Shown: positions 9,722 through 50,200 of the stretch, piece by piece
Numbering within the stretch: the first letter of the stretch is position 1
Layout: the number at the start of each line of letters is the position of its first letter
NCBI GenBank assembly: GCA_023101725.1
Contig: JALJCO010012628.1
Span: 1-64,000, forward strand
Direction: 5' to 3'
Length of the DNA: 64,000 nucleotides
Origin: Atherinomorus stipes
Lineage: Eukaryota; Chordata; Actinopteri; Atheriniformes; Atherinidae
Notes under the pieces: generated by a model
Seen by the model: the letters and a program-made list of their open reading frames with translations, nothing else
Told to the model about the DNA's origin: nothing
Databases searched by the model: none
Program-made: the position numbers and the translations under genes

Positions 9722-9732
9722 TTCAGTTCATC

Positions 9733-11039: not shown

Positions 11040-11488
11040 AGAATCCGGTGAGTTTGTGACTTTTATTAAAGACTGAAAACATCCATTAATGACTGAATGA
11101 AGCTGATAATCAATAGATGTGATTACATGTGATTGAACAGCAGTTCTACATTCACACACTGATTTATACAGAGAAGCAGCTCACACACCAGACTCCAGAT
11201 CACACCTGGTCCAGGACTCAGTCCTGATGGAGGGGACCACTGGGAGTGGTCCTGGACCAGGTTCAGACCTGCTGAGTCCAGTTCTGGATCAGGTTTACAG
11301 CAGTCCGGTTCAAACAGGATCATGTGTGGGCTGAGCAGGAGGCAGGTTAAAGCAGGAGGAGGGGGCCACATGACCCAGACCAGGACCAGGACCAGGATAG
11401 GACCAGAGCCAGGATGAGGACCCTGACAAGGAACAAGGCCAGAGCCCAGAACTACCATCTGGACCAGGACGGGAGTCAGGATCTGGTC
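11040..11488 (-). other. inferred 3' UTR of the class II beta gene
   Basis: About 450 bases from the stop codon to the first AATAAA on the minus strand (plus positions 11062-11067). No other AATAAA was seen between them. The end is inferred from the signal only. Confidence 0.6.
11062..11067 (-). terminator. polyadenylation signal AATAAA, beta gene
   Basis: The plus strand TTTATT reads AATAAA in the beta-gene sense, 425 bases after the stop codon. Confidence 0.55.
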
Positions 11489-11514
11489 TCAGTTGGTCGG
11501 AACCAGAATACGAC
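11489..11514 (-). CDS. DAB: MHC class II beta exon 6: cytoplasmic tail and stop
   Basis: A short terminal exon. With the preceding G it encodes GRILVPTN and then TGA (11489-11491). The acceptor is TTCTCAG|GT. Tails of this type (G-R-x-L-V-P) close many teleost class II beta chains, so the match is good despite its length. Confidence 0.85.
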
Positions 11515-14500
11515 CTGAGAAAAGAGAGAGGATAGAATGAAGAGCAAAAACTGAACCGGCTCACACTCCCCTGAACTGGTCCAAACTGGTCTTATATCAG
11601 ATAAGACCAGTTTAAAATGGCATAACCTTGTTTTAAACTGGTCTCATCTGGTTTTAAACGGGTCTAATCTGGTTTTAAACTGGTCCAACCTTGTTTGAAA
11701 CTGGTCTTATCTGGTTTTAAACTGGTATAATCTTGTTTTTGGTTTTATCTGGTTTAAAACTGGTCTAATCTTGTTTTAAACTGGTATAATCTTGTTTTTG
11801 AACTGGTTTATCTGGTTTAAAACTGGTTTAATCTTGTTTTTAACTGGTATAATCTTGTTTTTGAACTGGTTTTATCTGGTTTAAAACTGGTCTAATCTTG
11901 TTTTAAACTGGTTTAATTTGGATTAAAGATGTTTTTAAACTGGTTTTATCTGGTTTAAAACTGGTCTAATCTTGTTTAAACTGGTTTCATTTGGATTAAA
12001 ACTGGTCTAATCTGGTCTTAAACTGGTCTAACATTGTTTTCTACTGGTCTAAACTGGTGTAAACTGTTTTGAACGTGACTGACCTTGTTTTGTACAGGTT
12101 TAATTTTATTTCATACTGGTCTAAACTTGTTTTTCTGCTGGTTTAATTTTGTTTTAAAGTGGTCTGAACTGTTTTGAACTGGACTGACCTTGGGCCTTCC
12201 TCCTGTAATAGATGAATCCAGCCAGAGATAAGACCAGACCCAGGATCAGTCCTGAAGCTCCAATGGCAATCTTGTTTCTCTCTGACTCAGGCATGGACGG
12301 GTCTGGGGACACACAGGTGAGAGACAGACGGGTTGAGAGACAGACAGGTGAGAGAGACAGGTGTAGGACAGACAGATGTAGGACAGGTGTTTACCCCAGT
12401 CAGTAATCAGAGGTTCCTTCAGACTGGCGTGTTCCACCTTGCAGGAGATTTTCTCTCCAGACCTGCAACACAAACCAGCATCACTGATATGGAACTGAAA
12501 CACAAACTCTGTAAACCCGGAAAAAACCTATGTAGAACCAGGTAGAACCCAGGTAGAACCCAGGTAGAACCAGGTAGAACCCATGTAGAACCAGGTAGAA
12601 CCCAGGTAGAACCCATGCACCATGATAGAACGGTTCTATCATGCTCTCAGAAGCTGCCACCAGCGGACCCCTAGATCTGGGCAGACCAGGGCCCAGACCA
12701 CAACCATCATGTTGTAGTGCAGGACCCCCACCCACCCCAACAAGAACCCCACCTTTAGCCTCTTTTAAAAGCATCAACAGTCTCTGCAGGTTCTCTGGCA
12801 TAGACCAGGACCTGGTTTTATACTGGTCTAATCTTGTTTTAAACTGGTCCATAGATGGTCCATAGACCAGGACCTGGTTTTATACTGGTCTAATCTTGTT
12901 TTAAACTGGTCCAAAGATGGTCCATAGACCAGGACCTGGTTTTATACTGGTCTAATCTTGTTTTAAACTGGTCCATAGATGGTCCATAGACCAGGACCTG
13001 GTTTTATACTGGTCTAATCTTGTTTTTAAACTGGTCCATAGATGGTCCATAGACCAGGTCCTGGTTTTATACTGGTCTAATGTTGTTTTAAACTGGTCCA
13101 TAGATGGTCCATAGACCAGGACCTGGTTTTATACTGGTCTAATCTTGTTTTAAACTGGTCCATAGATGGTCCATAGACCAGGACCTGGTTTTATACTGGT
13201 CCAATCTTGTTTTAAACTGGTCCATAGATGGTCCATAGACCAGGACCTGGTTTTAAACTGGTCCAATCTTGTTTTAAACTGGTCCATAGACCAGGTCCTG
13301 GTTTTATACTGGTCTAATGTTGTTTTAAACTGGTCCATAGATGGTCCATAGACCAGGACCTGGTTTTATACTGGTCTAATCTTGTTTTAAACTGGTCCAT
13401 AGATGGTCCTTGGACCAGGACCTGGTTTTAAACTGGTCTAATCTTGTTTTAAACTGGTCCATAGATGGTCCATAGACCAGGACCTGGTTTTATACTGGTC
13501 TAATCTTGTTTTAAACTGGTCCATAGATGGTCCATAGACCAGAACCTGGTTTTATACTGGTCTAATCTTGTTTTAAACTGGTCCATAGATGGTCCATAGA
13601 CCTGGACCTGGTTTTATACTGGTCTAATCTTGTCTTAAACTGGTCCATAGATGGTCCAAAGCCCAGGTCCTGGTTTTATACTGGTCTAATCTTGTTTTAC
13701 ACTGGTCCATAGATGGTCCATAGACCAGGTCCTGGTTCTATACTGGTCCAATCTTGTTTTAAACGTGGTCCATAGACCAGGACCTGGTTTTATACTGGTC
13801 TAATCTTGTTTTTAAACTGGTCCATAGATGGTCCATAGACCAGGTCCTGGTTTTATACTGGTCTAATGTTGTTTTAAACTGGTCCATAGATGGTCCATAG
13901 ACCAGGACCTGGTTTTATACTGGTCTAATCTTGTTTTAAACTGGTCCATAGATGGTCCATAGACCAGGACCTGGTTTTATACTGGTCCAATCTTGTTTTA
14001 AACTGGTCCATAGATGGTCCATAGACCAGGACCTGGTTTTAAACTGGTCCAATCTTGTTTTAAACTTGGTCCATAGACCAGGTCCTGGTTTTATACTGGT
14101 CTAATGTTGTTTTAAACTGGTCCATAGATGGTCCTTAGACCAGGACCTGGTTTTAAACTGGTCTAATCTTGTTTTAAACTGGTCCATAGATGGTCCATAG
14201 ACCAGGACCTGGTTTTATACTGGTCTAATCTTGTTTTAAACTGGTCCATAGATGGTCCATAGACCAGGACCTGGTTTTATACTGGTCTAATCTTGTTTTA
14301 AACTGGTCCATAGATGGTCCATAGACCAGGACCATGATGGTGGAATGAAACCTCGCCGGGGGTTTCTGTCCTGACTTTAGGATCAACTGAAAGACCAGTA
14401 CCAGAGGATCTCAGGGTCCACGAGGACTCAAAATTTAGAAGCAGGTCAGATAATAAGAAGTTCCAACACCATGAAGACATTTATAAAACACCAGAAGAAG

Positions 14501-17500
14501 CTTAAAATCAATCTTGAATCGACGAGGGACGGACTCTGGGATGATTTTAAGATGATAAAATCTTTGTGATGTTTCTGATGTGTTGAATAACCCCCCCCCC
14601 CCCAGAGTCTAGAGAACACCCAGGTTTTTCACACTGAGAAGGATTAAAACTCCGTAATTCTGGTAAAATAATCTCCCCTCCTCTTCAGGACGATGATTAA
14701 AACTTTAGTCTTGTCCTGGTTGTAAGAAGTTCTTCCATCCATGACTTTACAGATCTGGGCATGAAAAAGTTCCCCTTTCAGCCGACTGCCAGCCACTTAC
14801 AGTACCAGCGACTTGTCTGCTATTTCAGTCACACAGAGAAACACCTCAGACTCAGACTCAGACTCAGCTTTAATAATCCCGTTGGGATGACCCCTTCAAG
14901 GAAATTGAAGGAGTGTGCCAGGGGAAATGATTTCAGAGCATAAATGAACGCCCGGAACAAGGACGTGTCCACACGCCAAGTTTGGACACCGTGCGTGATG
15001 ACGTATTCGCGGGACAAATCGTTCAGCCAGTGATAGTGCAGTAATGGTGCACTGTTACTGCACCACTTCTGGCAGAAGAAGGAGGAACTTTTTCATGCCC
15101 ACATCTGTATATCTAAGATCCAGTTAAAGGGTGTTAACTGGCTCCAGGTCATCAGGAGACACGGTGATGTAAAGCTGGGTATCATCAGCACAGTGGTGGA
15201 CTTCAGTGTCTCCTGATGACGTCCCCAAGTCAACATGTGCAGTTTAAAAAGTATTGGGCCTAAGATTGAACCCTGGGGAACCCCTAACTTAAAGCAGCTG
15301 CATCAGCTTTTCAAACGTTCCAAAAGTCAAAAACAGGCATTTATAAGCTAAACATGTTCCATCGTTACCATAGAAACTAATCTGGTGTAAATATTAGTTT
15401 TTTTATGCGTCTAATTTCCAACACGGAAGTAAGATGGCTCACTGTCCTGAACCACGGAGCTCTCGACCAATCACATCATGTTTTACGCCCATTTCACGAC
15501 GTCGCCCCGGAAGAGACACTTATTCTGAAGGTAACAGAATTGTTCTTAACACCGGCAGCTCACATGGACGTTTTTTGTAAATATTGATGGATGATCGGAT
15601 TCCGATCGACGGGATAAAACGGAGCAGCCTGTTATGGAGCTGTATGCTCCACCCAGATCTGATATGGAGTTTGAAGTACACGCAGTACCACAGAAGTACC
15701 ACAGAAGTACCACAGAAGTACCACAGAGACCCTGACAAGTAAGTAAATTAGCGAACAAATCAAAGGCTAACAGTTAGCATTGTTGTCTGTCCATGAGGCG
15801 TTTTTATAGCAGAAACTGCGTCAGGTTTCAGGGAACGCAGAAGTAATCCCAGAGAAAAAAACACTTTACTGCCCGACATTCATGAAGTTGTCAGGAGTGA
15901 AGTTCACACACAAAGTTGAGGTTTTTTCTGCTCCTGAAGTTAGAATCCAACCACTTCTGGAGTCGATTCATCCAGAACAACAAATAAACTCCCACGCTGA
16001 ACACAAACACATTTTTACCAACTCTCCGTCCTCTAGAGCTAAAAAAAACTCTTTCCTCCTGAATCTGGATGAAATGTCTGTTAGCTGATGGCTGCTTGTC
16101 TCTGAGGAAATCTTCCTGCAGCTGTTAGTTTCTTCCTCAGAGAGTGTGTATAGGTTCGGATTCTCTAAGAGTTTCTGTTCCACAAAGAGGGCGTCTGGCT
16201 ACGATGCTGCACATGCGAGTTTGTCGCTTCGTGATTGGTGCCACGTTCATACGTAACGGGGTGGATCGTCAGTCGTTTGCAGGGAGGTAGCGCTTGGTTT
16301 AAATATTCATGTAGATTACTCAAATATGCATGAATGAAGAAAACAACAATTTAAATCATTTCTTGATAAGGAAATAACACACTGACATGCTGAAAAGCTC
16401 TTAAAAGTCCATTTTTCATGATAGGGCTCCTTTAATCTGATGAGTTCCTGGGGAGCATGCATCCATATTTCAGCTGTTTCACTCTGTATGTTTTACTTCC
16501 AGCTTCACGGCTAACCAGCACACAGCTCCTGCAGCTGCAGCAGAGTCTGCTTCACCTCAGCAGGGTAACGTGGAGACTTAACGGCCTCCAGGCTGAAGCA
16601 GACAAGTTTAACAGCGGATCAGTGGGAGTTTTAAACGATGTGGAGCAGCTACAGCAGCTAGAAACACTCAGAACTGTTGCTTCAGGAGCAAAAAGACCAG
16701 ACAGAGACGAGGAGAATAACTGGTTACTGAACGCTGCTGTAGGTGCTGCTAATCTCTGCCATGTAAATGCAGCCAGACCAGGTTAGTCCTGACCCGGTTT
16801 CTCCTCTACCTGCTGCAGGCTACAATAAAGCCCACTACACCCAACAGAGCCAGACCATCTGCTGGAAGCAGACACGTCAATGGCTCATGTGCTCTAAGAA
16901 ATAAAGAGTTAGTAAAAAAGGACGGCTCTCTGACTGGCACTGCCATAGATTTTCAACTAATAAGTTCATTACATCACATTTTTGCAAAGGTGTCACTGGA
17001 AGACCTCAAAATCTTAGCAAGTATATTTTTCTAATTTCTAGTCCAAATATCTCATCACACTCAAATCAGACAAAATTACCTAAAGAGAAACATTTCAGTG
17101 AGATAAAGGAACTTGTTTTGAGACAAATGCATCTGATTTCAAGAAACCTTATCAAGAAAATTTCCTGGTTCTATAGGTAATTTTTTTTTTTGCTTAAATC
17201 AAGCAAAACATCTTTTTAAACTTATTTCAAGAGTAGCCTTTTTTGTACGTGACACTCTAGGTGGGACTGGATCTGGTCTTACCTGGGTGTGTACTCCAGG
17301 TGGGACTGGATCTGGTCTTACCTGGGTGTGTACTCCAGGTGGGACTGGATCTGGTCTTACCTGGGTGTATACTCCAGGTGGGACTGGATCTGGTCTGGTC
17401 TTACCTGGGTGTGTTCCCCAGGTGGGACTGGATCTGGTCTTACCTGGGTGTGTACTCCAGGTGGGACTGGATCTGGTCTTACCTGGGTGTATACTCCAGG

Positions 17501-20500
17501 TGGGACTGGATCTAGATCTGGTCTTACCTGGGTGTGTTCCCCAGGTGGGACTGGATCTGGTCTTACCTGGGTGTGTACTCCAGGTGGGACTGGATCTGGT
17601 CTTACCTGGGTGTGTACTCCAGGTGGGACTGGATCTGGTCTTACCTGGGTGTGTACTCCAGGTGGGACTGGATCTGGTCTGGTCTTACCTGGGTGTATAC
17701 TCCAGGTGGGACTGGATCTAGATCTGGTCTTACCTGGGTGTGTTCCCCAGGTGGGACTGGATCTGGTCTTACCTGGGTGTGTACTCCAGGTGGGACTGGA
17801 TCTGGTCTGGTCTTACCTGGGTGTGTACTCCAGGTGGGACTGGATCTAGATCTGGTCTTACCTGGGTGTGTTCCCCAGGTGGGACTGGATCTGGTCTTAC
17901 CTGGGTGTGTACTCCAGGTGGGATTGGATCTGGTCTTACCTGGGTGTGTACTCCAGGTGGGACTGGATCTGGTAGTACCTGGGTGTATACTCCAGGTGGG
18001 ACTGGATCTGGTCTTACCTGGGTGTGTACTCCAGGTGGGACTGGATCTGGTCTTACCTGGGTGTGTACTCCAGGGTGGGACTGGATCTGGTAGTACCTGG
18101 GTGTGTACTCCAGGTGGGACTGGATCTGGTAGTACCTGGGTGTATACTCCAGGTGGGACTGGATCTGGTCTTACCTGGGTGTGTACTCCAGGTGGGACTG
18201 GATCTTGTCTTACCTGGGTGTGTACTCCAGGTGGGACTGGATCTGGTCTAACCTGGGTGTGTACTCCAAGTTGGACTGGATCTGGTCTTACCTGGGTGTG
18301 TACTCCAGGTTGGACTGGATCTGGTCTTACCTGGTGTGTACTCCAGGTGGGACTGGATCTGGTCTTTCCAGGGTGTGTACTCCAGGTGGGACTGGATCTG
18401 GTCTTACCTGGGTGTGTACCCCATGTGGGACTGGATCTGGTCTTACCTGGGTGTGCACTCCAAGTTGGACTGGATCTGGTCTTACCTGGGTGTATACTCC
18501 TGGTGGGACTGGATCTGGTCTTACCTGGGTGTGCACTCCAGGTGGGACTGATCTTGTCTTACCTGGGTGTGTACTCCAGGTGGGACTGGATCTGGTCTTA
18601 CCTGGGTGTGCACTCCAAGTTGGACTGGATCTGGTCTTACCTGGGTGTGTACTCCAGGTGGGACTGGATCTGGTCTTACCTGGGTGTGCACTCCAAGTTG
18701 GACTGGATCTTGTCTTACCTGGGTGTGTACTCCAGGTGGGACTGGATCTGGTCTTACCTGGGTGTGCACTCCAAGTTGGACTGGATCTGGTCTTACCTGG
18801 GTGTGTACTCCAGGTGGGACTGGATCTGGTCTTACCTGGGCGTGTACTCTAAGTGGGACTGGATCTGGTCTTACCTGGGTATGTACTCCAGGTGGGACTG
18901 GATCTGGTCTTACCTGGGTGTGTACTCCAGGTGGGACTGGATCTGGTCTTACCTGGGTGTGTACTCCAGGTGGGACTGGATCTGGTCTTACCTGGGTGTG
19001 TACTCCAGATGGGACTGGATCTGGTCTTACCTGGGTGTGCACTCCAAGTTGGACTGGATCTGGTCTTACCTGGGTGTGTACTCCAGGTGGGACTGGATCT
19101 GGTCTTACCTGGGTGTGCACTCCAGGTGGGACTGGATCTTGTCTTACCTGGGTGTGTACTCCAGATGGGACTGGATCTGGTCTTACCTGGGTGTGCACTC
19201 CAGGTGGGACTGGATCTTGTCTTACCTGGGTGTGTACTCCAGGTGGGACTGGATCTTGTCTTACCTGGGTGTGTACTCCAGGTGGGACTGGATCTGGTCT
19301 GACCTGGGTTTGTACTCCAGGTGGGACTGGATCTGGTCTTACCTGGGTGTGAATCTCCAGGTGGGACTGGATCTGGTCTTACCTGGGTGTGTACTCCAGG
19401 TGGGACTGGATCTGGTCTGACCTGGGTTTGTACTCCAGGTGGGACTGGATCTGGTCTTACCTGGGTGTGTACTCCAGGTGGGACTGGATCTGGTCTTAGC
19501 TGGGTTCACACTCCAGGTGGGACTGGATCTGGTCTTACCTGGGTTTGTACTCCAGGTGGGACTGGGTCTGGTCTTACCTGGGTGTGTACTCCAGGTGGGA
19601 CTGGATCTAGATCTGGTCTTACCTGGGTGTGTACTCCAGGTGGGACTGGATCTGGTCTTACCTGGGTGTGTACTCCAGGTGGGACTGGATCTGGTCTTAC
19701 CTGGGTGTGTACTCCAGGTGGGACTGGATCTGGTCTTACCTGGGTGTGTACTCCAGGTGGGACTGGATCTGGTCTTAACTGGGTGTTTACTCCAGGTGGG
19801 ACTGGATCTGGTCTTACCTCGGTGTGTTCTCCAGGTGGGACTGGATCTGGTCTTACCTGGGTGTGTACTCCAGGTGGGACTGGATCTGGTCTTACCTGGG
19901 TGTATACTCCAGGTGGGACTGGATCTGGTCTTACCTGGGTTGGTACTCCAGGTGGGACTGGATCTGGTCTTACCTGGGTGTGTACTCCAGGTGGGACTGG
20001 ATCTGGTCTTACCTGGGTGTATACTCCAGGTGGGACTGGATCTGGTCTTACCTGGGCGTGTACTCCAGGTGGGACTGGATCTGGTCTTACCTGGGTGTGT
20101 ACTCCAGGTGGGACTGGATCTAGATCTGGTCTTACCTGGGTGTGTACTCCAGGTGGGACTGGATCTGGTCTTACCTGGGTGTGTACTCCAGGTGGGACTG
20201 GATCTGGTCTTACCTGGGTGTGTACTCCAGGTGGGACTGGGTCTGGTCTTACCTGGGTGTGTACTCCAGGTGGGACTGGATCTAGATCTGGTCTTACCTG
20301 GGTGTGTACTCCAGGTGGGACTGGATCTGGTCTTACCTGGGTGTGTACTCCAGGTGGGACTGGATCTGGTCTTACCTGGGTGTGTACTCCAGGTGGGACT
20401 GGATCTGGTCTTACCTGGGTGTTTACCTCCAGGTGGGACTGGATCTGGTCTTACCTCGGTGTGTTCTCCAGGTGGGACTGGATCTGGTCTTACCTGGGTG

Positions 20501-23500
20501 TGTACTCCAGGTGGGACTGGATCTGGTCTTACCTGGGTGTATACACCAGGTGGGACTGGATCTGGTCTTACCTGGGTTGGTACCCAGGTGGGACTGGATC
20601 TGGTCTTACCTGGGTTGGTACTCCAGGTGGGACTGGATCTGGTCTTACCTGGGTGTGTACTCCAGGTGGGACTGGATCTGGTCTTACCTGGGTGTATACT
20701 CCAGGTGGGACTGGATCTGGTCTTACCTGGGCGTGTACTCCAGGTGGGACTGGATCTGGTCTTACCTGGGTGTGTACTCCAGGTGGGACTGGATCTGGTC
20801 TTACCTGGGTGTGTACTCCAGGTGGGACTGGATCTGGTCTTACCTGGGTGTGTTCTCCAGGTGGGACTGGATCTGGTCTTACATGGGTGTGTTCTCCAGG
20901 TGGGACTGGATCTGGTCTTACCTGGGTGTGTACACCAGGTGGGACTGGATCTGGTCTTACCTGGGTTTGTAGTCCAGGTGGGACTGGATCTGGTCTTACC
21001 TGGGTGTGTACTCCAGGTGGGACTGGATCTGGTCTTACCTGGGTGTGTACTCCAGGTGGGACTGGATCTGGTCTTACCTGGGTGTGTACTCCAGGTGGGA
21101 CTGGATCTGGTCTTACCTGGGTTTGTAGTCCAGGTGGGACTGGATCTGGTCTTACCTGGGTGTGTACTCCAGGTGGGACTGGATCTGGTCTTACCTGGGT
21201 GTGTACTCCAGGTGGGACTGGATCTGGTAGTACCAGTCCCCGTCCTCCATCTCATCGGTGGAAGTGACATCAGAGGTGACCTCCTGTCCATCTCTGAGCC
21301 AGGTGACCCGGATGTGTTTGGGGTAGAAGTCGTAGATGCTGCAGACCAGCATGGCAGGATGACGACCAGCAGGGGGCGTGGTGGAGTACAGCCGGACGTA
21401 GGGTTCAGCTGGAACACAGACGAGGGTATTCATCACTATTTCATAGTAGAACTGTACAACATGTTGTTTTAGGGTCACATGGTTGGTACAGGGCGAAGCC
21501 GACACGTAAAGCCTCTGGAGTGTGTTACACCAGAACCGTTTGGTGGTAAAAAGGAACATCCAGACGCTGTTCTAGCAGATAAAAGCTGTTTTATTCTTCC
21601 TTTGACTTCCTCATCAGTAAAACATCATAGAGTGATAGAGTGTTTCTCGCCAAGCGGTCAAACCCAACGTGCCTTTCAGGTAAAACACACACCAATACGC
21701 ACATCACTTCCTGTCTTATAGACTTATAGACTGTCTTATAAACATTGGCTTCTACATACCGGCCCCTGATTGTTAGTCATGATTCTCAGCATTTCTACAA
21801 GTCAAGCAGGGCAAGTTTATCTGTACAGCACATTTCATGTACAGGACGATTCAAAGTGCTTCACATAAAACATTATCAACATTACAGTGGGGGACAGATA
21901 ATAAGAACAAGAAAGTAGAAGCATGACTTACAATTTAAAACATTAAAAATATTTAAGATTAAAAAGAGAGTATATAGAGTCGTGTGGATTTTAACTTTTG
22001 AGTAAATCTCTGAAGATGCAGCTGCGAACAGGAGGGTCTTTAATCTGGATTAAAATAAACTGTTCCAACTGATCTGAGACTTTCTGGGAGTTTGTTCCAG
22101 ACATGTGGAGCATAGAAGCTGAACACAGCAGATCCAGGTCTGGTCCTGATTCTGGAACTGATAAAAGACCGGATCCAGGTCTGGTTCTGACTCTGGAACT
22201 GATAAAAGACCGGATCCAGGTCTGGTTCTGACTCTGGAACTCATAAAAACCGGATCCAGGTCTGGTTTTGACTCTGGAACTGATAAAAAAAAAACGGATC
22301 CAGGTCTGGTTCTGACTCTGGGAACTGATAAAAGACCGGATCCAGGTCTGGTTCTGACTCTGGAACTGGTAAAAAACGGATCCAGGTCTGGTTCTGACTC
22401 TGGGAACTGATAAAAGACCAGATCTAGGTCTGGTTCTGACTCTGGAACTGATAAAAGACCAGATCCAGGTCTGGTTCTGACTCTGGAACTGATAAAAGAC
22501 CGGATCCAGGTCTGGTACTGACTCTGGAACTGATAAAAGACCGGATCCAGGACTGGTTCTGACTCTGGAACTGATCAAAGACCGGATCCAGGTCTGGTTT
22601 TGACTCTGGAACTGATAAAAGACCGGATCCAGGTCTGGTTTTGACTCTGGAACTGATAAAAGACCAGATCCAGGTCTGGTTCTGACACTGGAACTGATAA
22701 AAGACCGGATCCAGGTCTGGTTCTGACTCTGGAACTGATAAAAGACCGGATCCAGGTCTGGTTCTGACTCTGGAACTCATAAAAAACCGGATTCAGGTCT
22801 GGTTTTGACTCTGGAACTGATAAAAAAAACGGATCCAGGTCTGGTTCTGACTCTGGGAACTGATAAAAGACCGGATCCAGGTCTGGTTCTGACTCTGGAA
22901 CTGGTAAAAAAAACGGATCCAGGTCTGGTTCTGACTCTGGGAACTGATAAAAGACCAGATCTAGGTCTGGTTCTGACTCTGGAACTGATAAAAGACCGGA
23001 TCCAGGTCTGGTTCTGACTCTGGAACTGATAAAAGACCGGATCCAGGTCTGGTTCTGACTCTGGAACTCATAAAAAACCGGATCCAGGTCTGGTTTTGAC
23101 TCTGGAACTGATAAAAAACGGATCCAGGTCTGGTTCTGACTCTGGGAACTGATAAAAGACCGGATCCAGGTCTGGTTCTGACTCTGGAACTGGTAAAAAA
23201 AACGGATCCAGGTCTGGTTCTGACTCTGGGAACTGATAAAAGACCAGATCTAGGTCTGGTTCTGACTCTGGAACTGATAAAAGACCAGATCCAGGTCTGG
23301 TTCTGACCCTGGAACTGATAAAAGACCGGATCCAGGTCTGGTACTGACTCTGGAACTGATAAAAGACCGGATCCAGGACTGGTTCTGACTCTGGAACTGA
23401 TCAAAGACCGGATCCAGGTCTGGTTTTGACTCTGGAACTGATAAAAGACCGGATCCAGGTCTGGTTTTGACTCTGGAACTGATAAAAGACCAGATCCAGG

Positions 23501-26500
23501 TCTGGTTCTGACACTGGAACTGATAAAAGACCGGATCCAGGTCTGGTTCTGACTCTGGAACTGATAAAAGACCGGATCCAGGTCTGGTTCTGATTCTTGA
23601 ACTGATAAAAGACCGGATCCAGGTCTGGTTCTGACTCTGGAACTGATAAAAGACCAGATCCAGGTCTGGTTCTGACTTTGGAACTGATAAAAGACCAGAT
23701 CCAGGTCTGGTTCTGACTCTGGAACTGATAAAAGACCGGATCCAGGTCTGGTTCTGACTCTGGAACTGATAAAAGACCGGATCCCGGTCTGGTTCTGACT
23801 CTGGAACTGATAAAAGACCGGATCCAGGTCTGGTTCTGACTCTGGAACTGATAAAAAACCAGATCCAGGTCTGGTTCTGACTCTGGAACTGATGAAAGAC
23901 CTGATCCAGGTCTGGGTCTGGTTCTGGAACTGATAAAAGACCGGATCCAGGTCTGGTTCTGATTCTGGAACTGATAAAAGACCAGATCCAGGTCTGGTTC
24001 TGATTCTGGAACTGATAAAAGACCAGATCCAGGTCTGGTTCTGAATCTGGAACTGATAAATGACCGGATCCAGGTCTGGTTCTGACTCTGGAACTGATAA
24101 AAGACCGGATCCAGGTCTGGTTCTGATTCTGGAACTGATAAAAGACCAGATCCAGGTCTGGTTCTGATTCTGGAACTGATAAAAGACCAGATCCAGGTCT
24201 GGTTCTGACTCTGGAACTGATAAAAGACCGGATCCAGGTCTGGTTCTGATTCTGGAACTGATAAAAGACCAGATCCAGGTCTGGTTCTGACTCTGGGAAC
24301 TGATAAAAGACTGGATCCAGGTCTGGTTCTGATTCTTGAACTGATAAAAGACCAGATCCAGGTCTGGTTCTGACTTTGGAACTGATAAAAGACCAGATCC
24401 AGGTCTGGTTCTGATTCTGGAACTGATAAAAGACCAGATCCAGGTCTGGTACTGACTCTGGAACTGATAAAAGACCGGATCCAGGTCTGGTTCTGACTCT
24501 GGAACTGATAAAAGACCAGATCCAGGTCTGTTTCTGATTCTGGAACTGATAAAAGACCAGATCCAGGTCTGGTTCTGACTTTGGAACTGATAAAAGACCA
24601 GATCCAGGTCTGGTTCTGACTCTGGAACAGATAAAAGACCAGATCCAGGTCTGGTTCTGACTCTTGAACTGATAAACGACCGGATCCAGGTCTGGTTCTG
24701 ATTCTGGAACTGATAAAAGACCAGATCCAGGTCTGGTTCTGATTCTTGAACTGATAAACGACCGGATCCAGGTCTGGTTCTGATTCTGGAACTGATAAAA
24801 GACCGGATCCAGGTCTGGTTCTGATTCTGGAACTGATAAAAGACCAGATCCAGGTCTGGTTCTGACTCTGGGAACTGATAAAAGACCGGATCCAGGTCTG
24901 GTTCTGATTCTTGAACTGATAAAAGACCAGATCCAGGTCTGGTTCTGACTTTGGAACTGATAAAAGACCAGATCCAGGTCTGGTTCTGATTCTGGAACTG
25001 ATAAAAGACCAGATCCAGGTCTGGTTCTGACTTTGGAACTGATAAAAGACCAGATCCAGGTCTGGTTCTGATTCTTGAACTGATAAAAGACCGGATCCAG
25101 GTCTGGTTCTGACTTTGGAACTAATAAAAGACCAGATCCAGATCTCTGGTTCTGACTCTGGAACTGATAAAAGACCGGATCCAGGTCTGGTTCTGACTCT
25201 GGAACTGATAAAAGACCGGATCCAGGTCTGGTTCTGACTCTGGAAGTGATAAAAGACCGGATGCAGGTCTGGTTCTGATTCTGGAACTGATAAAAGACCG
25301 GATCCAGGTCTGGTTCTGACTCTGGAACTGATAAAAACCGGATCCAGGTCTGGTTCTGACTCTGGGAACTGATACAAGACCGGATCCAGGTCTGGTTCTG
25401 ACTCTGGAACTGATAAAAGACCGGATCCAGGTCTAGGTCTGACTCTGGGAACTGATCAAAGACCGGATCCAGGTCTGGTTCTGACTCTGGAACTGATAAA
25501 AGACCTGATCCAGGTCTGGGTCTGGTTCTGGAACTGATAAAAGACCAGATCCAGGTCTGGTTCTGATTCTGGAACTGATAAAAGACCAGATCCAGGTCTG
25601 GTTCTGACTCTGGAACTGATAAATGACCGGATCCAGGTCTGGTTCTGATTCTGGAACTAATAAAAGACCGGATCCAGGTCTGGTTCTGACTCTGGAACTG
25701 ATAAATGACCGGATCCAGGTCTGGTTCTGACTCTGGAACTGATAAAAGACCGGATCCAGGTCTGGTTCTGACTCTGGAACTAATAAATGACCGGATCCAG
25801 GTCTGGTTCTGACTCTGGAACTGATAAATGACCGGATCCAGGTCTGGTTCTGATTCTGGAACTAATAAAAGACCGGATCCAGGTCTGGTTCTGATTCTGG
25901 AACTGATAAAAGACCAGATCCAGGTCTGGTTCTGACTCTGGAACTGATAAAAGACCGGATCCAGGTCTGGTTCTGACTCTGGAACTGATAAAAGACCGGA
26001 TCCAGGTCTGGTTCTGACTCTGGAACTGCTAAAAAGACCGGATCCAGGTCTGGTTCTGACTCTGGAACTGATAAAAGACCGGATCCAGGTCTGGTTCTGA
26101 TTCTGGAACTGATAAAAGACCAGATCCAGGTCTGGTTCTGACTCTGGAACTGATAAAAGACCGGATCCAGGTCTGGTTCTGATTCTGGAACTGATAAAAG
26201 ACCAGATCCAGGTCTGGTTCTGACTCTGGAACTGATGAAAGACCGGATCCAGGTCTGGTTCTGACTTTGGAACTGATAAAAGACCAGATCCAGGTCTGGT
26301 TCTGACTCTGGAACAGATAAGACTGGATCCAGGTCTGGTTCTGATTCTGGAACTGATAAAAGACCAGATCCAGGTCTGGTTCTGACTCTGGAACTGATAA
26401 AAGACCAGATCCAGGTCTGGTTCTGACTTTGGAACTGATAAAAGACCAGATCCAGGTCTGGTTCTGATTCTGGAACAGATAAAAGACTGGATCCAGGTCT

Positions 26501-29466
26501 GGTTCTGATTCTGGAACTGATAAAAGACCAGATCCAGGTCTGGTTCTGACTCTGGAACAGATAAAAGACCAGATCCAGGTCTGGTTCTGACTCTGGAACT
26601 GATAAAAGACTGGATCCAGGTCTGGTTCTGATTCTGGAACTGATAAATGACCGGATCCAGGTCTGGTTCTGATTCTGGAACTAATAAAAGACCGGATCCA
26701 GGTCTGGTTCTGACTCTGGAACTGATAAATGACCGGATCCAGGTCTGGTTCTGACTCTGGAACTGATAAAAGACCGGATCCAGGTCTGGTTCTGACTCTG
26801 GAACTAATAAATGACCGGATCCAGGTCTGGTTCTGACTCTGGAACTGATAAATGACCGGATCCAGGTCTGGTTCTGATTCTGGAACTAATAAAAGACCGG
26901 ATCCAGGTCTGGTTCTGATTCTGGAACTGATAAAAGACCAGATCCAGGTCTGGTTCTGACTCTGGAACTGATAAAAGACCGGATCCAGGTCTGGTTCTGA
27001 CTCTGGAACTGATAAAAGACCGGATCCAGGTCTGGTTCTGACTCTGGAACTGCTAAAAGACCGGATCCAGGTCTGGTTCTGACTCTGGAACTGATAAAAG
27101 ACCGGATCCAGGTCTGGTTCTGATTCTGGAACTGATAAAAGACCAGATCCAGGTCTGGTTCTGACTCTGGAACTGATAAAAGACCGGATCCAGGTCTGGT
27201 TCTGATTCTGGAACTGATAAAAGACCAGATCCAGGTCTGGTTCTGACTCTGGAACTGATGAAAGACCGGATCCAGGTCTGGTTCTGACTTTGGAACTGAT
27301 AAAAGACCAGATCCAGGTCTGGTTCTGACTCTGGAACAGATAAGACTGGATCCAGGTCTGGTTCTGATTCTGGAACTGATAAAAGACCAGATCCAGGTCT
27401 GGTTCTGACTCTGGAACTGATAAAAGACCAGATCCAGGTCTGGTTCTGACTTTGGAACTGATAAAAGACCAGATCCAGGTCTGGTTCTGATTCTGGAACA
27501 GATAAAAGACTGGATCCAGGTCTGGTTCTGATTCTGGAACTGATAAAAGACCAGATCCAGGTCTGGTTCTGACTCTGGAACAGATAAAAGACCAGATCCA
27601 GGTCTGGTTCTGACTCTGGAACTGATAAAAGACTGGATCCAGGTCTGGTTCTGATTCTGGAACTGATAAAAGACCAGATCCAGGTCTGGTTCTGACTCTG
27701 GAACTGATAAAAGACCAGATCCAGGTCTGGTTCTGACTTTGGAACTGATAAAAGACCAGATCCAGGTCTGGTTCTGATTCTGGAACAGATAAAAGACTGG
27801 ATCCAGGTCTGGTTCTGATTCTGGAACTGATAAAAGACTGGATCCAGGTCTGGTTCTGATTCTGGAACAGATAAAAGACCAGATCCAGGTCTGGTTCTGA
27901 TTCTGGAACAGATAAAAGACTGGATCCAGGTCTGGTTCTGACTCTGGAACAGATAAAAGACCAGATCCAGGTCTGGTTCTGACTTTGGAACTGATAAAAG
28001 ACCAGATCCAGGTCTGGTTCTGATTCTGGAACTGATAAAAGACCGGATCCAGGTCTGGTTCTGATTCTGGAACTGATAAAAGACCGGATCCAGGTCTGGT
28101 TCTGATTCTGGAACTGATAAAAGACCGGATCCAGGTCTGGTTCTGATTCTGGAACTGATAAAAGACCGGATCCAGGTCTGGTTCTGATTCTGGAACTGAT
28201 AAAAGACCAGATCCAGGTCTGGTTCTGATTCTGGAACTGATAAAAGACCAGATCCAGGTCTGGTTCTGATTCTGGAACTGATAAAAGACCGGATCCAGGT
28301 CTGGTTCTGATTCTGGAACTGATAAAAGACCGGATCCAGGTCTGGTTCTGATTCTGGAACTGATAAAAGACCGGATCCAGGTCTGGTTCTGATTCTGGAA
28401 CTGATAAAAGACCGGATCCAGGTCTGGTTCTGACACTGGAACTGATAAAAGACTAGATCCAGGTCCTCTGATCTGGTTCCAGTCTTCAGGATCACAGTGA
28501 TCCAGGTTTCTGGGTCTCATTTCAAAGGTTTGGACCCAGAAACCTGGATCAGAGGTGGAACTGGATCCCAGATCTGGATCAGATCTTTAGGACCGGATCT
28601 GGTCTGGAAACCAGTTTCTGGGTCAAATCCTGGATCCTGGAGATGAAACCAGACCAGCAGCTGATCTGAGGTCACAGGTGCAGCCTGATCTTCATCATGA
28701 TGAGGAAGAGGATGGAACACTCACCTGATTTAGGCAGAATGTTGTTGTACCAGATCCCAATGTTGTGTTTGCAGTACGTCTCCTTCTGAGCTCTCTCACC
28801 AGCCAGAATTCCTTGATCTTTGTTCCAGGCTGCAGCGTTCTTCACTCCAAACTCCGTGTATCCTACATACTCTCCCACGCTGCTGTCAAACCTGATGATC
28901 TCCTTCTTGTTGAAGTAATACGAGTCGATGTACTCGATGTCGTTCAGATCAGTGGAGTTAAACACACACCGACCCACTCTATAATTCTCAAATCCATCTG
29001 GAACAGAAACAAGCTCAGTATTGATCTCTGATCACATTATTGATGCTGAACATTCATTCATCAGGAACCAGAATATTGATCAGAGTATTGATTATCTATC
29101 AGTGATCAGTGATCAGTAAACAAGTTCCTCCTGATCATAAACCACCTGCAGCTCATTGATCAGAGTATTGATTATCTATCATTGATCAGTGATAAATAAA
29201 CAAGTTCCTCCTGATCATAAACCACCTGCAGCTCATCAATCAGAGTATTGATTATCTATCATTGATCAGTGATAAATAAACAAGTTCCTCCTGATCATAA
29301 ACCACCTGCAGCTCATGGATCAGAGTATTGATCAGCCTACTGCCAGCAGCTGGATAAAGTCGTGAAGTACCAATAACATATTGATCAGTGATCAGTGAGT
29401 ATTGATCCTACCTGCCGGGTAGACGGTGATGAAGAGGAGGGTGAGGAGGAGGAAGGATGAAGCCAT
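11489..29466 (-). CDS. DAB: MHC class II antigen beta chain (six coding exons)
   Basis: Beta subunit of the class II heterodimer that presents endosomally derived peptides at the cell surface to CD4 T cells. Coding exons on the minus strand: 29412-29466, 28725-28997, 21195-21408, 12395-12462, 12189-12302 and 11489-11514. They total 750 bases, giving 249 residues, normal for the family. Order: signal peptide, beta-1 domain, beta-2 Ig C1 domain, connecting peptide, membrane helix, short tail. All introns are GT-AG, with phases 1, 1, 2, 1, 1. The second intron inside the beta-2 domain (after ...EYTPR) is the acanthopterygian arrangement. Introns 2 and 3 are swollen to 7.3 and 8.7 kb by minisatellites, whereas class II introns in fish are usually far shorter. 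No frame break is seen, so the gene looks functional if the introns can be spliced. The symbol is the generic class II B label; the lineage letter was not tested. Confidence 0.95.
11575..12187. repeat. degenerate ~30-bp repeats in beta intron 5
   Basis: Most of intron 5 consists of diverged copies of AAACTGGTCTAATCTTGTTT with variable spacing, much less regular than the other arrays. The core is the same as half of the 62-bp unit in intron 3, so the two arrays share an origin although two exons (4 and 5) lie between them. Confidence 0.85.
12189..12302 (-). CDS. DAB: MHC class II beta exon 5: connecting peptide and membrane helix
   Basis: Encodes DPSMPESERNK, the membrane span IAIGASGLILGLVLSLAG then FIYYRRKAQ. 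The glycines are spaced along one helix face, as expected for pairing with the alpha-chain helix, and a basic RRK stop-transfer follows. The acceptor is CCCCAG|AC and the donor CAAG|GTCAGT. Confidence 0.94.
12395..12462 (-). CDS. DAB: MHC class II beta exon 4: second part of the beta-2 Ig domain
   Basis: A 68-base exon encodes SGEKISCKVEHASLKEPL then ITDW. It contains the second Ig cysteine (ISCKVEH) that pairs with the one in exon 3. The acceptor is GTTGCAG|GT and the donor TGGG|GTAAAC. With exon 3 it makes one C1-type Ig domain. The split by a large intron is the acanthopterygian feature. Confidence 0.95.
12537..12615. repeat. 12/13-bp tandem repeat near beta exon 4
   Basis: About six copies of AGGTAGAACCC with variants (ATGTAGAACC). 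It lies in intron 3 about 75 bases from the exon 4 acceptor. On the sense strand it gives runs of TGGGTTCTACC. Confidence 0.88.
12799..14333. repeat. 62-bp minisatellite in beta intron 3, ~24 units
   Basis: Units of about 62 bases contain CTGGTCCATAGATGGTCCAT, AGACCAGGACCTGG and TACTGGTCTAATCTTGTTTT. Some units lack the duplicated GGTCCATAGAT part. It ends at the 3' end of the LINE remnant. Its TGGTCTAATCTTGTTTTAAA half is the same as the core of the degenerate repeat in intron 5. Confidence 0.95.
14334..15288 (-). mobile_element. L2/Rex-like LINE reverse transcriptase remnant
   Basis: Minus-strand translation gives GVPQGSILGPILF near 15285, then, after a frameshift, CADDTQLYITVSPDD, the reverse transcriptase palm motif. 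Past an inserted MITE it continues KSWM, NQDKTKVLII and, further on, DFKLLLVFYKCLHG and TLRSSGTGLSVDPK, which fit the C-terminal part of L2/Rex-type fish LINEs. Several frameshifts and stops show it is an old fragment. Its 3' end meets the 62-bp array at about 14334. It sits in sense orientation with the beta gene in intron 3. Confidence 0.7.
14750..15107. mobile_element. mariner-like MITE inserted in the LINE remnant
   Basis: The ends are inverted repeats of about 24 bases with one mismatch: left CAGATCTGGGCATGAAAAAG (14750-14769) and right the complement of CAGATGTGGGCATGAAAAAG (15088-15107). Each end is flanked by TA (14748-14749 and 15108-15109), the Tc1/mariner target. It is 358 bases long with no transposase frame. 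The LINE reading resumes on both sides, which supports the borders. Confidence 0.75.
15293..16431. mobile_element. possible TTAA-flanked non-autonomous DNA element
   Basis: This 1.1-kb stretch is flanked by TTAA (15289-15292 and 16432-16435). Its ends are only weakly alike as inverted repeats (left AGCAGCTGCATCA; right, reversed, AGGAGCCCTATCA). It abuts the LINE remnant on the left, as if inserted in or beside it. The right end (TTTTCATGATAGGGCTCC) resembles ends of common fish repeats. The piggyBac-like reading is tentative. Confidence 0.3.
16457..16786 (+). other. unrecognised 109-codon open frame with exon-like borders
   Basis: The open frame reads LQLQQSLLHLSRVTWRLNG..., and then a stretch with EQLQQLETLR. 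It has an acceptor-like TTACTTCCAG at 16494-16503 and a donor-like CAG|GTTAGT near 16784. It is helical-looking and Gln/Leu-rich. It lies antisense in beta intron 3 between mobile-element debris, with AATAAA motifs downstream. I do not recognise the family. It could be part of a transposon or a captured gene fragment, or chance. Confidence 0.25.
17255..21230. repeat. 39-bp minisatellite in beta intron 3 made of the exon 3 end plus its splice donor, ~100 units
   Basis: Read on the minus strand, each unit is the last ~34 bases of beta exon 3 (coding QIQSHLEYTP) followed by CAG|GTAAG. The array begins at the true donor (21195) and runs to 17255 with almost constant 39-base period. Some units have a 6-base insert (GATCTA or TGGTCT duplicated). 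The first real exon copy differs from array units only in bases upstream (TACTACCAG). The unit length is 13 codons and most frames other than the exon frame lack stops, so long false open frames arise on both strands. In the exon frame each donor copy reads as the stop TAA. Confidence 0.96.
21195..21408 (-). CDS. DAB: MHC class II beta exon 3: first part of the beta-2 Ig domain
   Basis: Encodes AEPYVRLYSTTPPAG to ...QIQSHLEYTPR with phase 1 entry and phase 2 exit. It carries the first Ig cysteine (MLVCSIYDFYP) and the core Trp (VTWLRDG), and the conserved DGDWYYQI strand. The acceptor is GTTCCAG|CT. The donor chosen is the first CAG|GTAAG at 21191-21197. Reading on past it meets TAA within the same codon register. 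The last ~34 bases of this exon are also the repeated unit of the array that follows, so the donor is followed by about 100 near-identical copies of itself. Confidence 0.94.
21800..22145. repeat. dispersed teleost retroposon-like repeat leading into the 41-bp array
   Basis: The stretch has TTTATCTGTACAGCACATTT, then TTCAAAGTGCTTCACATAAA, and near its end GGGAGTTTGTTCCAGACATG. I recognise these words from a very common interspersed repeat of teleost genomes (from memory; family name not certain). In that repeat the following text is of the kind 'TCTGGTTCTGACTCTGGAACTG', so the 41-bp unit appears to be an amplified piece of it. Confidence 0.6.
22130..28466. repeat. 41-bp minisatellite array in beta intron 2, ~155 units
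   Basis: Tandem units of 41 bases with core GGTCTGGTTCTGACTCTGG then AACTGATAAAAGACC and GATCC (plus strand). The period is nearly constant and the variants are mostly CCGGATCC/CCAGATCC and ACTCTGG/ATTCTGG. Three units are 123 bases without stops in some frames, which creates long false open frames on the minus strand. A higher-order duplication of about 1024 bases (25 units) is visible: ~25600-26600 matches ~26620-27600, shown by rare shared variants (ACTGCTAAAA at 26026 and 27050; GAACAGATAAGACTGG at 26311 and 27334). A second, shorter one repeats 22140-22720 near 22960-23540. Confidence 0.97.
28499..28550. repeat. 18-bp perfect inverted repeat in beta intron 2
   Basis: The left arm GATCCAGGTTTCTGGGTC (28499-28516) is exactly complementary to the right arm GACCCAGAAACCTGGATC (28533-28550), with a 16-base loop. 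In the pre-mRNA it would form a strong stem about 175 bases after the exon 2 donor, between the exon and the 41-bp array. Confidence 0.9.
28725..28997 (-). CDS. DAB: MHC class II beta exon 2: beta-1 peptide-binding domain
   Basis: Encodes DGFENYRVGRCVF... to ...NNILPKS (91 codons counting the shared ones). The two disulfide cysteines of the beta-1 domain are visible (GRCVF and ETYCKHN). An N-glycosylation site NST follows the first cysteine. Residues that hold the peptide backbone in classical chains appear conserved: Trp in AAAWNKD (W61-like) and His-Asn in CKHN (H81/N82-like). This is normally the polymorphic exon. The acceptor is TTCCAG|AT and the donor TCAG|GTGAG. Confidence 0.95.
29081..29330. 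repeat. 80-bp tandem repeat, ~3 copies, in beta intron 1
   Basis: Three copies of an 80-base unit start with CAGAGTATTGATTATCTATC at 29081, 29161 and 29241, and a fourth is cut short at 29321. The repeat is AT-rich and full of TGATCA. It occupies most of the 414-base intron 1 of the beta gene. Confidence 0.93.
29412..29466 (-). CDS. DAB: MHC class II beta exon 1: signal peptide
   Basis: Encodes MASSFLLLTLLFITVYPA plus the first base of the next codon. It has a hydrophobic leader core and ends in a donor (GGCAG|GTAGG). The start codon is the only in-frame ATG before the hydrophobic stretch. It lies about 80 bases downstream of an X-box match on the same strand, consistent with a short 5' UTR. 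Confidence 0.92.
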
Positions 29467-38213: not shown

Positions 38214-38253
<40 letters not shown>

Positions 38254-40834: not shown

Positions 40835-40876
<42 letters not shown>

Positions 40877-47200: not shown

Positions 47201-50200
47201 AAAATAAGTGTGATTCATTAGTTTTTAATATGTAGCCTATAGGCTGTTCTACGCACCTGGGTATGGGCGCATGAGGTTGACCTTTTGGGGGAGGGCCTCA
47301 TCAGCTACAAACACCGGTGGTGTCAGCACATCTGTCCCAGGCAGAGGGGCGTATGGTGGCAGGGGGAGTTGGCCTTGGATGAGCTGCGCTCCAAAGTTGG
47401 TCCGACTGAAGACACCAGCATCACTTTCCTTGCCGAACGCTCCAATGTGGACAAATGTAAAGCGGTAGTTGGCATCACAGGCTGCCATCATCACGAAGCT
47501 GAAAAATCCTTTGTAGTTGAAAAAACTACTGCCACTGTTGGCTGGCGCTTTGATGCGGACGTGCTTGCCGTCGATCGCTCCGATACAGTTGGGGTAATCC
47601 CACTGCGTCCAAAACCCATCACGTATCACCTCCCACCCGTCGCCTTGCGGGTACTTCGCCTCATCCTCCAGCCCAGCCCACAGAGCCCGACACACCTCCT
47701 TAATGATGGTAGAAACTGTCGCTGTCCCCAGTTTATAGCTCGCGGCGAGGGCTTGCTGGCTGATCCCTGCTGCCAGAAAACGTAACGTGACCGCCAGACG
47801 CTCAGCATCACTGACAGGGGCTCTGTGGGATGCGGCATGTTGAATGAGCGGCGATACCCGGCGTAGTAAGCTGTCAAAAGTTACGGTAGCCATCCTGAAA
47901 TACAGAAATGGCGCTCATCATCCAATTCCCGCATTGACAAAACCAAAGAAAAAAAATCCCCATTTATATGGCGATTTACATGAAGTGGTCAGACATGCCA
48001 CCGCCGCGTACACTTATTTTTTTCCCACCTTTTCTGTAGTAGACGCAGCAAAACTACCTCCTCTATCGATGCCATATTCGCGATTATCGATGCCGGAAAA
48101 TTTCGACGCAACACTGCCCTCTAGAGTTTGAACGGAGTAACATTCATAACAACGCTGAAACCGGACGGAGGTATGTAGACCAGTAGCGGAGACAATGTTT
48201 GGTACGGACGGGACAATTTCGTCCGTATCCAGAGGTATGAAGCAAGCTTAACGGAGCCAACGGAGCTAACGGGGCTAACGGAGCTAACGGGGCTAACGGA
48301 GCTAATGGAGCTAATGGAGCTAACAGAGCTAACGGAGCTAACGGGGCTAATGGAGCTAATGGAGCTAACAGAGCTAATGGAGCCAACGGAGCTAACAGAG
48401 CTAACAGAGCTAACGGAGCTAACAGAGCTAACGGAGCTAACGGAGCTAATGGAGCTAACGGAGCTAATGGAGCAAACAGAGCTAACGGTGCTAACGGGGC
48501 TAACGGAGCTAATGGAGCAATCGGGGCTAACGGAGCTAACGGAGCTAACGGGGCTAATGGAGCTAACAGGGCTAATGCCAGGATGCTCTGGTATGCAGGG
48601 ATGGGACGGTCCTGCAGCCAAGCAGCCGCCATGTTGTGGAGAGGATGTTTATCTTAAGAAAACAGGACTTTATGATCTGTACAATTATTATTTCACCAGG
48701 TAGCGGTTAGCAAGAGGGATGGGTACCAAAACCTGGTATCAAAATGGCGCCGGGGCCGAGTCCGATGGTCCACCTGGACCGATAAGCTTCAGTCTGACTG
48801 GTCCTCTTATCGGTACCTGCAGTTAAGGTCGTTCTCAGTTTGTGCAGCAGACTAGCTAAGACATGATCTAACCTCCTCCTGAACAAGTACCCATGCTGCA
48901 GGACTGGAAGGAGGCTGCTGCACTCTCACATGTCCACCCCCCTCCATGGAGGAGCTCCCTCACCAGCAGGAACAGCTGTGATGGCAGAGCAGTCTGGCTC
49001 CAGATGTTCATGTTATGGCTGGCTACTCTGTCTCTGTGGGAAGTCCTCAACCTTAAATCAAACTCCCCAAATCAGCAACTCTGCCGCACCTGCAGCCTGA
49101 AGCTGGTTGCTGCTAAACGTTGCTCAGCAGCAGGAGATCATGTCAATGTTAGCAGCTCTGAGAAGAGAGGGGAGCCCCATGATGATAACGATGGAGAGAG
49201 AGGGGCGTCCCACAGACAGATGCAGAGCAAAGAAAGCCAGACAGCTGTTTGGGCTGATGGTGGGAAATGTTGGATTGTTACATTTATTTTCTATCTGAAC
49301 CGGTTTTTGTTGCTCACTATGAAAAACTTTAATAAAGATTACAGCAGCTAAACTCTAAACATTTAACCTGTAAAGTGCCACCTGCAGCAGGAACGTACAC
49401 ATGTACAGAACAGAACTGATGGGTCAGGAAGTGTTGTTTTACTTTTTAGAGTTCTGGCATATAGAAACGTAATACTCCAACAGTACAAAAATATACACTA
49501 ATATTCATGTTTAGTATAATTACTATTATGGATAACCATTTTATCCATTTTATGGATCTAACCCTAACCCCTCTATATGAAAAACTTCAATAAAGATTAC
49601 AGCAGCTAAACTCTAAACATTTAACCTGTAAAATGGTGTTCCTGTCCTCAGATCCTCCGTCCAGCCTGATCATCTACACCAGAGACTTTGTGGAACCGGA
49701 GGTGAAGAACTCCCTGATCTGCCACGTGTCCGGGTTCTACCCTGCTCCTGTCAAAGTCCACTGGACCAAGAACGGAGAGAAAGTGACCGACGGAACCAGC
49801 ATCAACGTCCCCTTCCCCAACAAAGACGGGTCCTTCACCCAGATCTCCAGACTGGCCTTCGTCCCCCAGCAGGGAGACATCTACACCTGTACAGTGGAGC
49901 ATCTGGCCCTGACCCAGTCCCAGACCCGGATCTGGGGTAAGACCTGGATCTGGACACGCAGACCTCCATGAGGACGTCCATGTCTCTGTGTTCTGTCTCC
50001 ATGAGGAGGTCCATGTCTCTGTTTTCTGTCTCTATGAGGAGGTCCATGTCTCTGTCTTCTTTCTCCATGAGGAGGTCCATGTCTCTGTTTCATGTCTCCA
50101 TGAGGAGGTCCATGTCTCTGTTTTCTTTCTCTATGAGGAGGTCCATGTCTCTGTGTTCTGTCTCCATGAGGAGGTCCATGTCTCTGTGTTCTGTCTCCAT

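Follow-up and report, generated by a model that had tools for sequence, protein, structure and literature searches.

A junction-derived array of exon-end and splice-donor copies in an MHC class II beta gene of Atherinomorus stipes

Intron 3 of a major histocompatibility complex (MHC) class II beta gene of the fish Atherinomorus stipes opens with a 39-bp tandem array in which each unit repeats the end of exon 3 together with the first bases of the intron, and comparison of the sequences confirms the exon 3/intron 3 junction as the origin of this array. The gene lies in the window that we analysed, the 64,000 nucleotides from position 1 to position 64,000 of contig JALJCO010012628.1 (C6622; 81,623 bp) of the 1.18-Gb assembly GCA_023101725.1. 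The array is, in our judgement, likely to be a minisatellite that was seeded by the junction and is close to neutral as long as the first donor wins. Its anatomy, the direction of copying, its presence in both of two gene copies, the turnover of units, and the lack of a donor-specific conservation are directly supported by the data.

The array (17254..21234, minus strand) starts inside exon 3 and occupies the first ~4 kb of intron 3 (12463..21194, minus strand; 8732 bp). A wrap-around alignment over 21234-17254 gave 102 segments, which are 100 full units, the first of them being the exon end, and a part unit at each end; Tandem Repeats Finder (TRF) reported a period of 39, 100.6 copies, and 92% matches for 17254-21228. 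In sense orientation, on the minus strand, the unit reads ACCAGATCCAGTCCCACCTGGAGTACACACCCAG|GTAAG, i.e., GTAAG preceded by the final 34 nt of exon 3, and unit 1 equals the consensus at all 34 exon bases. A preliminary description of this DNA had proposed that the unit consists of the exon 3 end and CAG|GTAAG, and the alignment of the unit consensus to exon 3, with 34/34 identical exon bases, bears this out. Exon 3 itself (21195..21408, minus strand; 214 nt) encodes the first part of the beta-2 domain, and its final 34 nt are repeat copy 1. The description had also let the array begin at the real donor, which is correct in that unit 1 is the exon end, but the boundaries had to be refined: the donor CAG|GTAAG lies at 21190..21197 (minus strand), with 21195 as last exon base and 21194 as first intron base. 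The number of about 100 copies of exon end and donor stands for the full units, but only 88 of the 100 keep CAGGTAAG (CAG|GTAAG), or 87 of 99 when the exon copy is left aside, and CAGGTAAGA was found 88 times. Among the variants, units 79, 80, and 83, in the stretch 18010..18170 (minus strand), end with the exon-type GGTACT and not with GGTAAG in the alignment, and CAGGTACTA was counted three times. GGTACTACCAG is present in the exon upstream of the first unit and GGTAAGACCAG in the intronic units, and the distal units 79, 80, and 83 have the exon form.

When the unit was compared with the non-array DNA of the window, the best match was found at 21195-21234, with 38/40 identical bases and a score of 70, as compared to a maximum of 26 with 40 shuffles of the unit, and the exon-side homology extends over 34 nt, with a null maximum of 7. 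HLA-DRB1 could be aligned gap-free across the exon 3/exon 4 junction, where it has one uninterrupted sequence (gdwyyqiqshleytprsgekisckveh), and two beta paralogues of the same genome (L009 and L013) are intron-less and have an open reading frame through the junction site. The gap-free alignment and the uninterrupted paralogues indicate that the coding sequence is older and that the array is derived from it. The origin from the exon junction, as initially suggested, is thus corroborated by the 34-nt identity, the shuffle test, the HLA-DRB1 alignment, and the paralogues. The opposite order, with an array that became part of an exon only afterwards, is rejected in view of the homology of the exon end to HLA-DRB1 and of the intron-less paralogues. 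An assembly artefact could be considered, as long arrays are difficult to assemble, but two contigs contain differently ordered arrays with matching borders, and we regard the probability of either an artefact or an array older than the exon as negligible. In a further paralogue (L012:4558-4837, contig C1671), there is also no intron at the site, and the frame is broken near the junction, which makes it a pseudogene or points to a sequence error. As to the first duplication, GGTA occurs in the exon (21234-21231) and again at the donor (21195-21192) with a spacing of exactly 39 bp, and this pair could possibly have been its seed.

The second array was found on contig C2036, which carries a collinear beta gene (copy B, an allele or a recent duplicate) with nucleotide identities to the gene of the window (copy A) of 85% in exon 2, 96% in exon 3, 100% in exon 4, and 99% in exon 5. 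The array of copy B reaches from the exon 3 donor to the matching distal flank and consists of 116 full units, 97 of which have CAGGTAAG. Head-to-tail 39-bp units whose copy number varies between two gene copies (100 vs 116 full units) are what characterizes a minisatellite. Copies A and B have six unit types in common, including the consensus, but their common runs never include more than a single informative unit. The array of copy B contains an internal duplication of ~32 units (offset 1259 bp, identity 93.9%, L006:7687 to about L007:130). As arrays with common borders and differing interiors are present in both copies, the array most likely predates their split, with an interior that turns over fast. 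Exon 3 of copy B (L006:6817) has ACG where the consensus has ACA, a synonymous A-to-G change, and ACG is the sole change in 12/115 intronic units of copy B, as compared to 2/99 in copy A, whose exon does not have it. It is possible that an exchange between exon and array took place, as this would explain the ACG distribution in copy B, but recurrent change would explain it as well.

That the array presents many near-identical strong donors, as already described, is confirmed by the 88 occurrences of CAGGTAAGA and by the predicted pairing with the U1 5' end, which amounts to -11.0 kcal/mol for the array donor and to -11.8 kcal/mol for a perfect site. On the minus strand of the window, there is only one equally strong donor outside the array, and this is the exon 2 donor. 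Equally correct was the recognition of a TAA as the next codon in frame with the exon, since the bases across the junction are ACA CCC AG|G TAA, with the stop codon at 21193-21191 (minus strand), and any later donor would therefore bring in this stop. The claim that only the first donor keeps the protein has to be modified, however, as later donors do add TAA, but a unit-to-unit splice would restore the exon|GTAAG junction.

It could be assumed that the array is regulatory, with later donors being used depending on the repeat number and the resulting TAA-containing messages being degraded, or with U1 small nuclear ribonucleoprotein (snRNP) being held, so that class II beta output is lowered or tuned. 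The 88 donors, including the real one, indeed share their predicted U1 strength, TAA directly follows exon 3 and would remain upstream of the exon 4/5 junction if later donors were used, and the copy number differs between the gene copies (100 vs 116). Moreover, passages in the literature link a class II beta minisatellite of the brook charr to expression with temperature (PMC3891768) and describe downstream repeat units of IFI6 that serve as donors (PMC4526556). Nevertheless, we consider such a regulation decidedly unlikely. With the exon copy excluded, the mean identity of the eight donor positions is 0.980 vs 0.971 at the other positions in copy A, and 0.975 vs 0.973 in copy B, and the donor window ranks only 19/39 (copy A) and 24/39 (copy B) among the circular windows, which means that there is no preferential conservation. 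Neither purging nor protection of donors was seen near the exon, where 18 (copy A) and 15 (copy B) of the first 20 units still have theirs; in copy B, the donor is missing from units 4, 6-8, and 12 but retained in the others. Donor-bearing arrays also occur away from recognizable exons, as outlined below. Judged from the two arrays, the donor octamer shows no indication of selection in either direction in copy A or B, and the pattern would fit a drift under homogenization, although a function that is set by the gross donor number alone would be compatible as well. A titration of U1, an exon-definition platform, or a tuning of the ratio of protein to nonsense-mediated decay (NMD) received no positive support from the sequence analyses.

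RNA folding predictions speak against a regulatory use of the donors as well, since they pair the donors, which would weaken them: the predicted accessibility of array donors has a median of 2e-5, vs 1.1e-3 for all 9-mers of the region, and the donor CCAGGU is able to pair with ACCUGG. However, the real donor of exon 3 (1e-5) and that of exon 1 (2e-5) come out just as buried as the array donors, and the donors of exons 2 and 4 are predicted to be about ten times less buried, with the exon 2 site taken one base off. A 150-nt RNA over the junction has a predicted energy of -58.5 kcal/mol, vs a shuffle mean of -41.9 kcal/mol (z -4.5), and unit multimers reach about 16 kcal/mol per unit. The real unit tetramer is at -60.5, and shuffled tetramers (n=100) have a mean of -32.9 (sd 8.9), with the best of them, at -62.8, being slightly stronger than the real one.

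With CAG|GTAAG in 88/100 units, most units are formally GT-to-AG introns that are flanked by CCCAG and GTAAG, which is the AG|GT layout known from UBC. The array could hence be composed of tandem dual-specific sites, with units that are spliced to each other, an intron that is shortened stepwise, and an mRNA that remains unchanged, and the 3.1-fold enrichment of human AGGT sites and the tandem array in UBC, as given in the respective passages (PMC10809524), would be in line with this idea. However, the putative acceptor half of the unit is poor in T (3/20 before the unit CAG, vs 7-10 in four presumed real acceptors of the gene, with the exon 2 site one base off), though its pyrimidine content of 12/20 is inside the range of 10-15 of the real acceptors. 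No clear branch-point motif was recognized in the unit on inspection by eye, and a splice would have to span several units, as these are only 39 nt long. We therefore believe that unit-to-unit splicing is very unlikely to account for the array.

A junction-seeded minisatellite would require only that a segment spanning the boundary of exon 3 and intron 3, with 34 nt of the exon and GTAAG, was duplicated in tandem, and that the array was then expanded and homogenized through unequal exchange or slippage. After such a donor-spanning duplication, the 5'-most donor would still bound the normal exon, the frame would remain intact, and the extra copies would be intronic, and even a unit-to-unit splice (CCCAG|...|GTAAG) would lead back to an identical exon|donor junction, whereas a comparable duplication within an exon or across an acceptor would be felt more often. 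Donor-side junction duplications would thus be close to silent, which could explain the persistence of the array, and this donor-side asymmetry, together with slippage or unequal exchange, would make the array explicable without any function. Exon-size limits would favor the first few donors, and therefore only these would be realistic competitors. If a later donor were used, the TAA would precede the new junction by at least 35 nt and the exon 4/5 junction by more, and a decay of these messages would be expected from this position. It is thus the duplication seed, the first-donor use, and the near neutrality that we infer in this model.

Donor-bearing arrays are not restricted to the MHC gene. 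Three CAGGTAAG in steps of 12-42 nt were matched 710 times in the genome, vs 179 times with the reversed pattern, and the same three-site pattern with CAGGTAAGT had 82 matches, vs 13 reversed, with the counts representing overlapping matches inside a limited number of arrays rather than independent events. For 17 arrays outside the MHC, taken from the first places listed of the 710, we inspected the 5' flank; arrays on C1518, C1839, C3064, C6052, C6062, C6530, and C6594 are listed outside this sample. Pfam was run for the exons on C140, C863, C209, C1021 (288 kb), and C1704, and PDB for C1704. The array on C140 is clearly junction-seeded, as it starts in a Kalirin-like spectrin exon and contains 18 nt of this exon in its unit (score 15 vs a null maximum of 8); the Pfam match of 3.7e-14 covers residues 9-43 of a query whose first 12 residues came from a wrong frame, and hence includes four wrong residues. 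Junction seeding is probable for the array on C1704, which starts in an apparent coding exon with open frame and splice signals and has 13 nt in common with it, vs a null maximum of 7. It is doubtful for two arrays that begin at a donor but include very little exon sequence, namely 6 nt in the case of a zona pellucida exon on C863 (Pfam 5.3e-13), and 8 nt in the case of an ATG-led open exon without Pfam match on C1021 (288 kb). The start of the array on C265 is ambiguous in this respect. A general exon origin of donor arrays had to be rejected, as 12/17 show no recognizable exon at their start; in one of these cases, on C209, a DCAF15 exon (Pfam 2.2e-22) is present, but the array start lies about 460 bp downstream of its donor. 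Junction seeding has hence occurred more than once in this genome, but, as far as can be judged from the flanks, most of the donor-bearing arrays that were read have another history.

Several points weigh against a junction-seeded and nearly neutral array. For the exon on C1704, Pfam gave no match and PDB none of significance (best E 0.62), and the 6 and 8 nt on C863 and C1021 (288 kb) are within chance, with null 99th percentiles of 6 and 8. In the translated flanks, inspected by eye, no exon was seen at the start of the arrays on C209, C744, C1115, C1226, C1021 (216 kb), C2747, C3402, C4783, C6356, C7509, C2085, and C1861. Use of the first donor is something that we infer for the beta gene, homogenization would result in an equal conservation of donor and non-donor positions even if the array were functional, and the fact that both gene copies keep about 90 to 100 strong donors each could point to some advantage.

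The survey of donor arrays also revealed units of a different type. At L031 (C1021:216854), a 39-bp unit with about three copies resembles a mini-intron, with GTAAG, a T-rich tract, and TTTCAG arranged head to tail, and mini-intron-like 39-bp units are also listed on C1839, C6052, C6062, and C6594. Very similar 28-bp donor-bearing units are present on two contigs (L034 on C1021 and L027 on C744), and the L034 array follows an ATG-led open exon without Pfam match that perhaps belongs to a mobile-element gene.

The window is generally rich in repeats, with the eight largest or gene-near tandem arrays making up 40,841 of its 64,000 bases (1-64000; 63.8%). A 41-bp array in beta intron 2 (22131..28465, no strand assigned; 154.2 copies by TRF) served for comparison, and a 62-bp array (12799-14333 by TRF) is located in beta intron 3. 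Five other large arrays were compared with the non-array DNA of the window, with the alpha acceptor end being masked, and reached scores of 22-28, with shuffle maxima of 25-36. The 41-bp array was marginal (27 vs a shuffle maximum of 25), and the idea that the 23-, 62-, 26-, and 33-bp arrays are copies of non-array DNA is unsupported, as none of them scored above its own shuffle maximum. The 33-bp array fills most of intron 3 of an MHC class II alpha gene (49964..62725, plus strand; 381.1 copies to 62571 by TRF), and its final unit extends into the acceptor of exon 4, with a junction match of 51 vs a shuffle maximum of 23. The array has 273 matches to TGTCTC[CT]ATGAG, a tract-plus-AG motif, and exon 4 sequence beyond 4 nt is not present in its unit. 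We regard this array as the acceptor-side counterpart of the beta array. One may combine these aspects in a wider concept, in which exon/donor junctions would be recurrent minisatellite seeds in this genome, the units would act as dual-specific sites that are silently trimmed and thereby buffer the gene against repeat growth, a rare use of inner donors would feed NMD depending on the repeat number, and the alpha array would be the acceptor-side counterpart, but as a whole we find this concept unlikely.

The other beta exons are all on the minus strand. Exon 1 (29412..29466) encodes the signal peptide MASSFLLLTLLFITVYPA and was read from the sequence, as were the splice signals of exon 2 (28725..28997), whose 273 nt encode the beta-1 domain (PF00969 6.4e-13 in the genome search). 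Exon 4 (12395..12462; SGEKISCKVEHASLKEPLITDW) follows the intron that interrupts the beta-2 domain, and exon 5 (12189..12302) encodes the connecting/transmembrane region. With the spliced protein as query, Pfam gave MHC_II_beta (3.5e-15) and C1-set (4.5e-25), and PDB gave HLA-DRB1 (1.2e-46). A Pfam search of the translated frames of 9000-17260, with stops taken as X, gave nothing for the beta gene, and exons 4-5 were found separately; the frames of 37200-49900 were likewise searched with stops as X. With beta-1 and C1-set domains and an intron inside the beta-2 region, the gene fits the six-exon type of fish, whereby exons 1-5 were located and the count of six stems from the comparison with other fish, as no search for exon 6 was made. 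The splitting of beta-2 by intron 3 agrees with the layout of six-exon beta genes in other fish, as given in the respective passages (PMC4394517, PMC3162010).

The beta gene naturally presents about ninety near-identical donors in series and is available in two copies of unequal length, and because each wrong final donor is marked by the same stop, the choice among identical donors becomes directly testable. The array also demonstrates how coding DNA can give rise to an intronic repeat without a change in the protein, and it suggests that in repeat-rich fish genomes, some minisatellites may stem from donor junctions. Its main interest is that of a natural experiment in donor choice and of a case of exon-seeded repeats.

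Splice-donor minisatellites (IFI6), tandem dual-specific sites (UBC), and intron repeats in class IIB genes of fish have been known already. An exon-end/donor array in an MHC gene was not described among the matches listed in our literature search, which is weak evidence of absence, as subscription journals are little covered. According to the relevant passages, class IIB genes of the flounder have six exons, a decamer repeat in intron 3, and a length variation that is in part due to tandem repeats (PMC4394517), those of the Midas cichlid have repeats in intron 2 and an intron 3 of 155 bp to 5 kb (PMC5310070), and that of the miiuy croaker has six exons, an 86-bp intron 3, and a beta-2 region interrupted by an intron (PMC3162010). 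It is the same gene with a variable intron length, and the croaker intron splits beta-2 as it does here, but in these passages no repeat is referred to as a copy of exon end and donor, and intron 3 has up to 5 kb in contrast to the 8.7 kb in our case. The minisatellite of the brook charr gene reportedly has a 32-bp unit, is located in intron 2, and is not known to be a donor copy, so that unit and location would differ from those of the beta intron 3 array. In the passage on this minisatellite, a role in expression with temperature is reported (PMC3891768, citing Croisetiere 2010), so that a precedent for an effect on expression exists for a minisatellite of this gene in fish. In humans, dual-specific AGGT sites show a 3.1-fold enrichment relative to expectation, with a tandem array of them in UBC, and it was argued that dual-specific expansions are less deleterious since they can be removed by splicing, as the passages in question put it (Duan et al. 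2024, PMC10809524). UBC resembles the beta array by its head-to-tail AG|GT sites, each formally a donor and an acceptor, and by a unit length that is divisible by three, but the UBC repeats are coding and splicing alters the monomer number, whereas the beta array is intronic, includes a stop, and has a T-poor acceptor half. The unit of the IFI6 splice-donor minisatellite is said to have 12 bp and to be located at the exon/intron border. Two downstream units of this repeat, in the gene also known as 6-16 or G1P3, serve as splice donors according to the passage that refers to it (PMC4526556, citing Turri 1995). Both are immune genes with a tandem repeat whose units supply splice donors, and the beta array has the same layout, with donor-consensus sites in its units and a real exon end that it adjoins. 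In IFI6, however, downstream donors are used and three mRNAs result, whereas the beta array has 39-bp units that include 34 nt of coding exon and are present 100 times, and each later donor would add a TAA.

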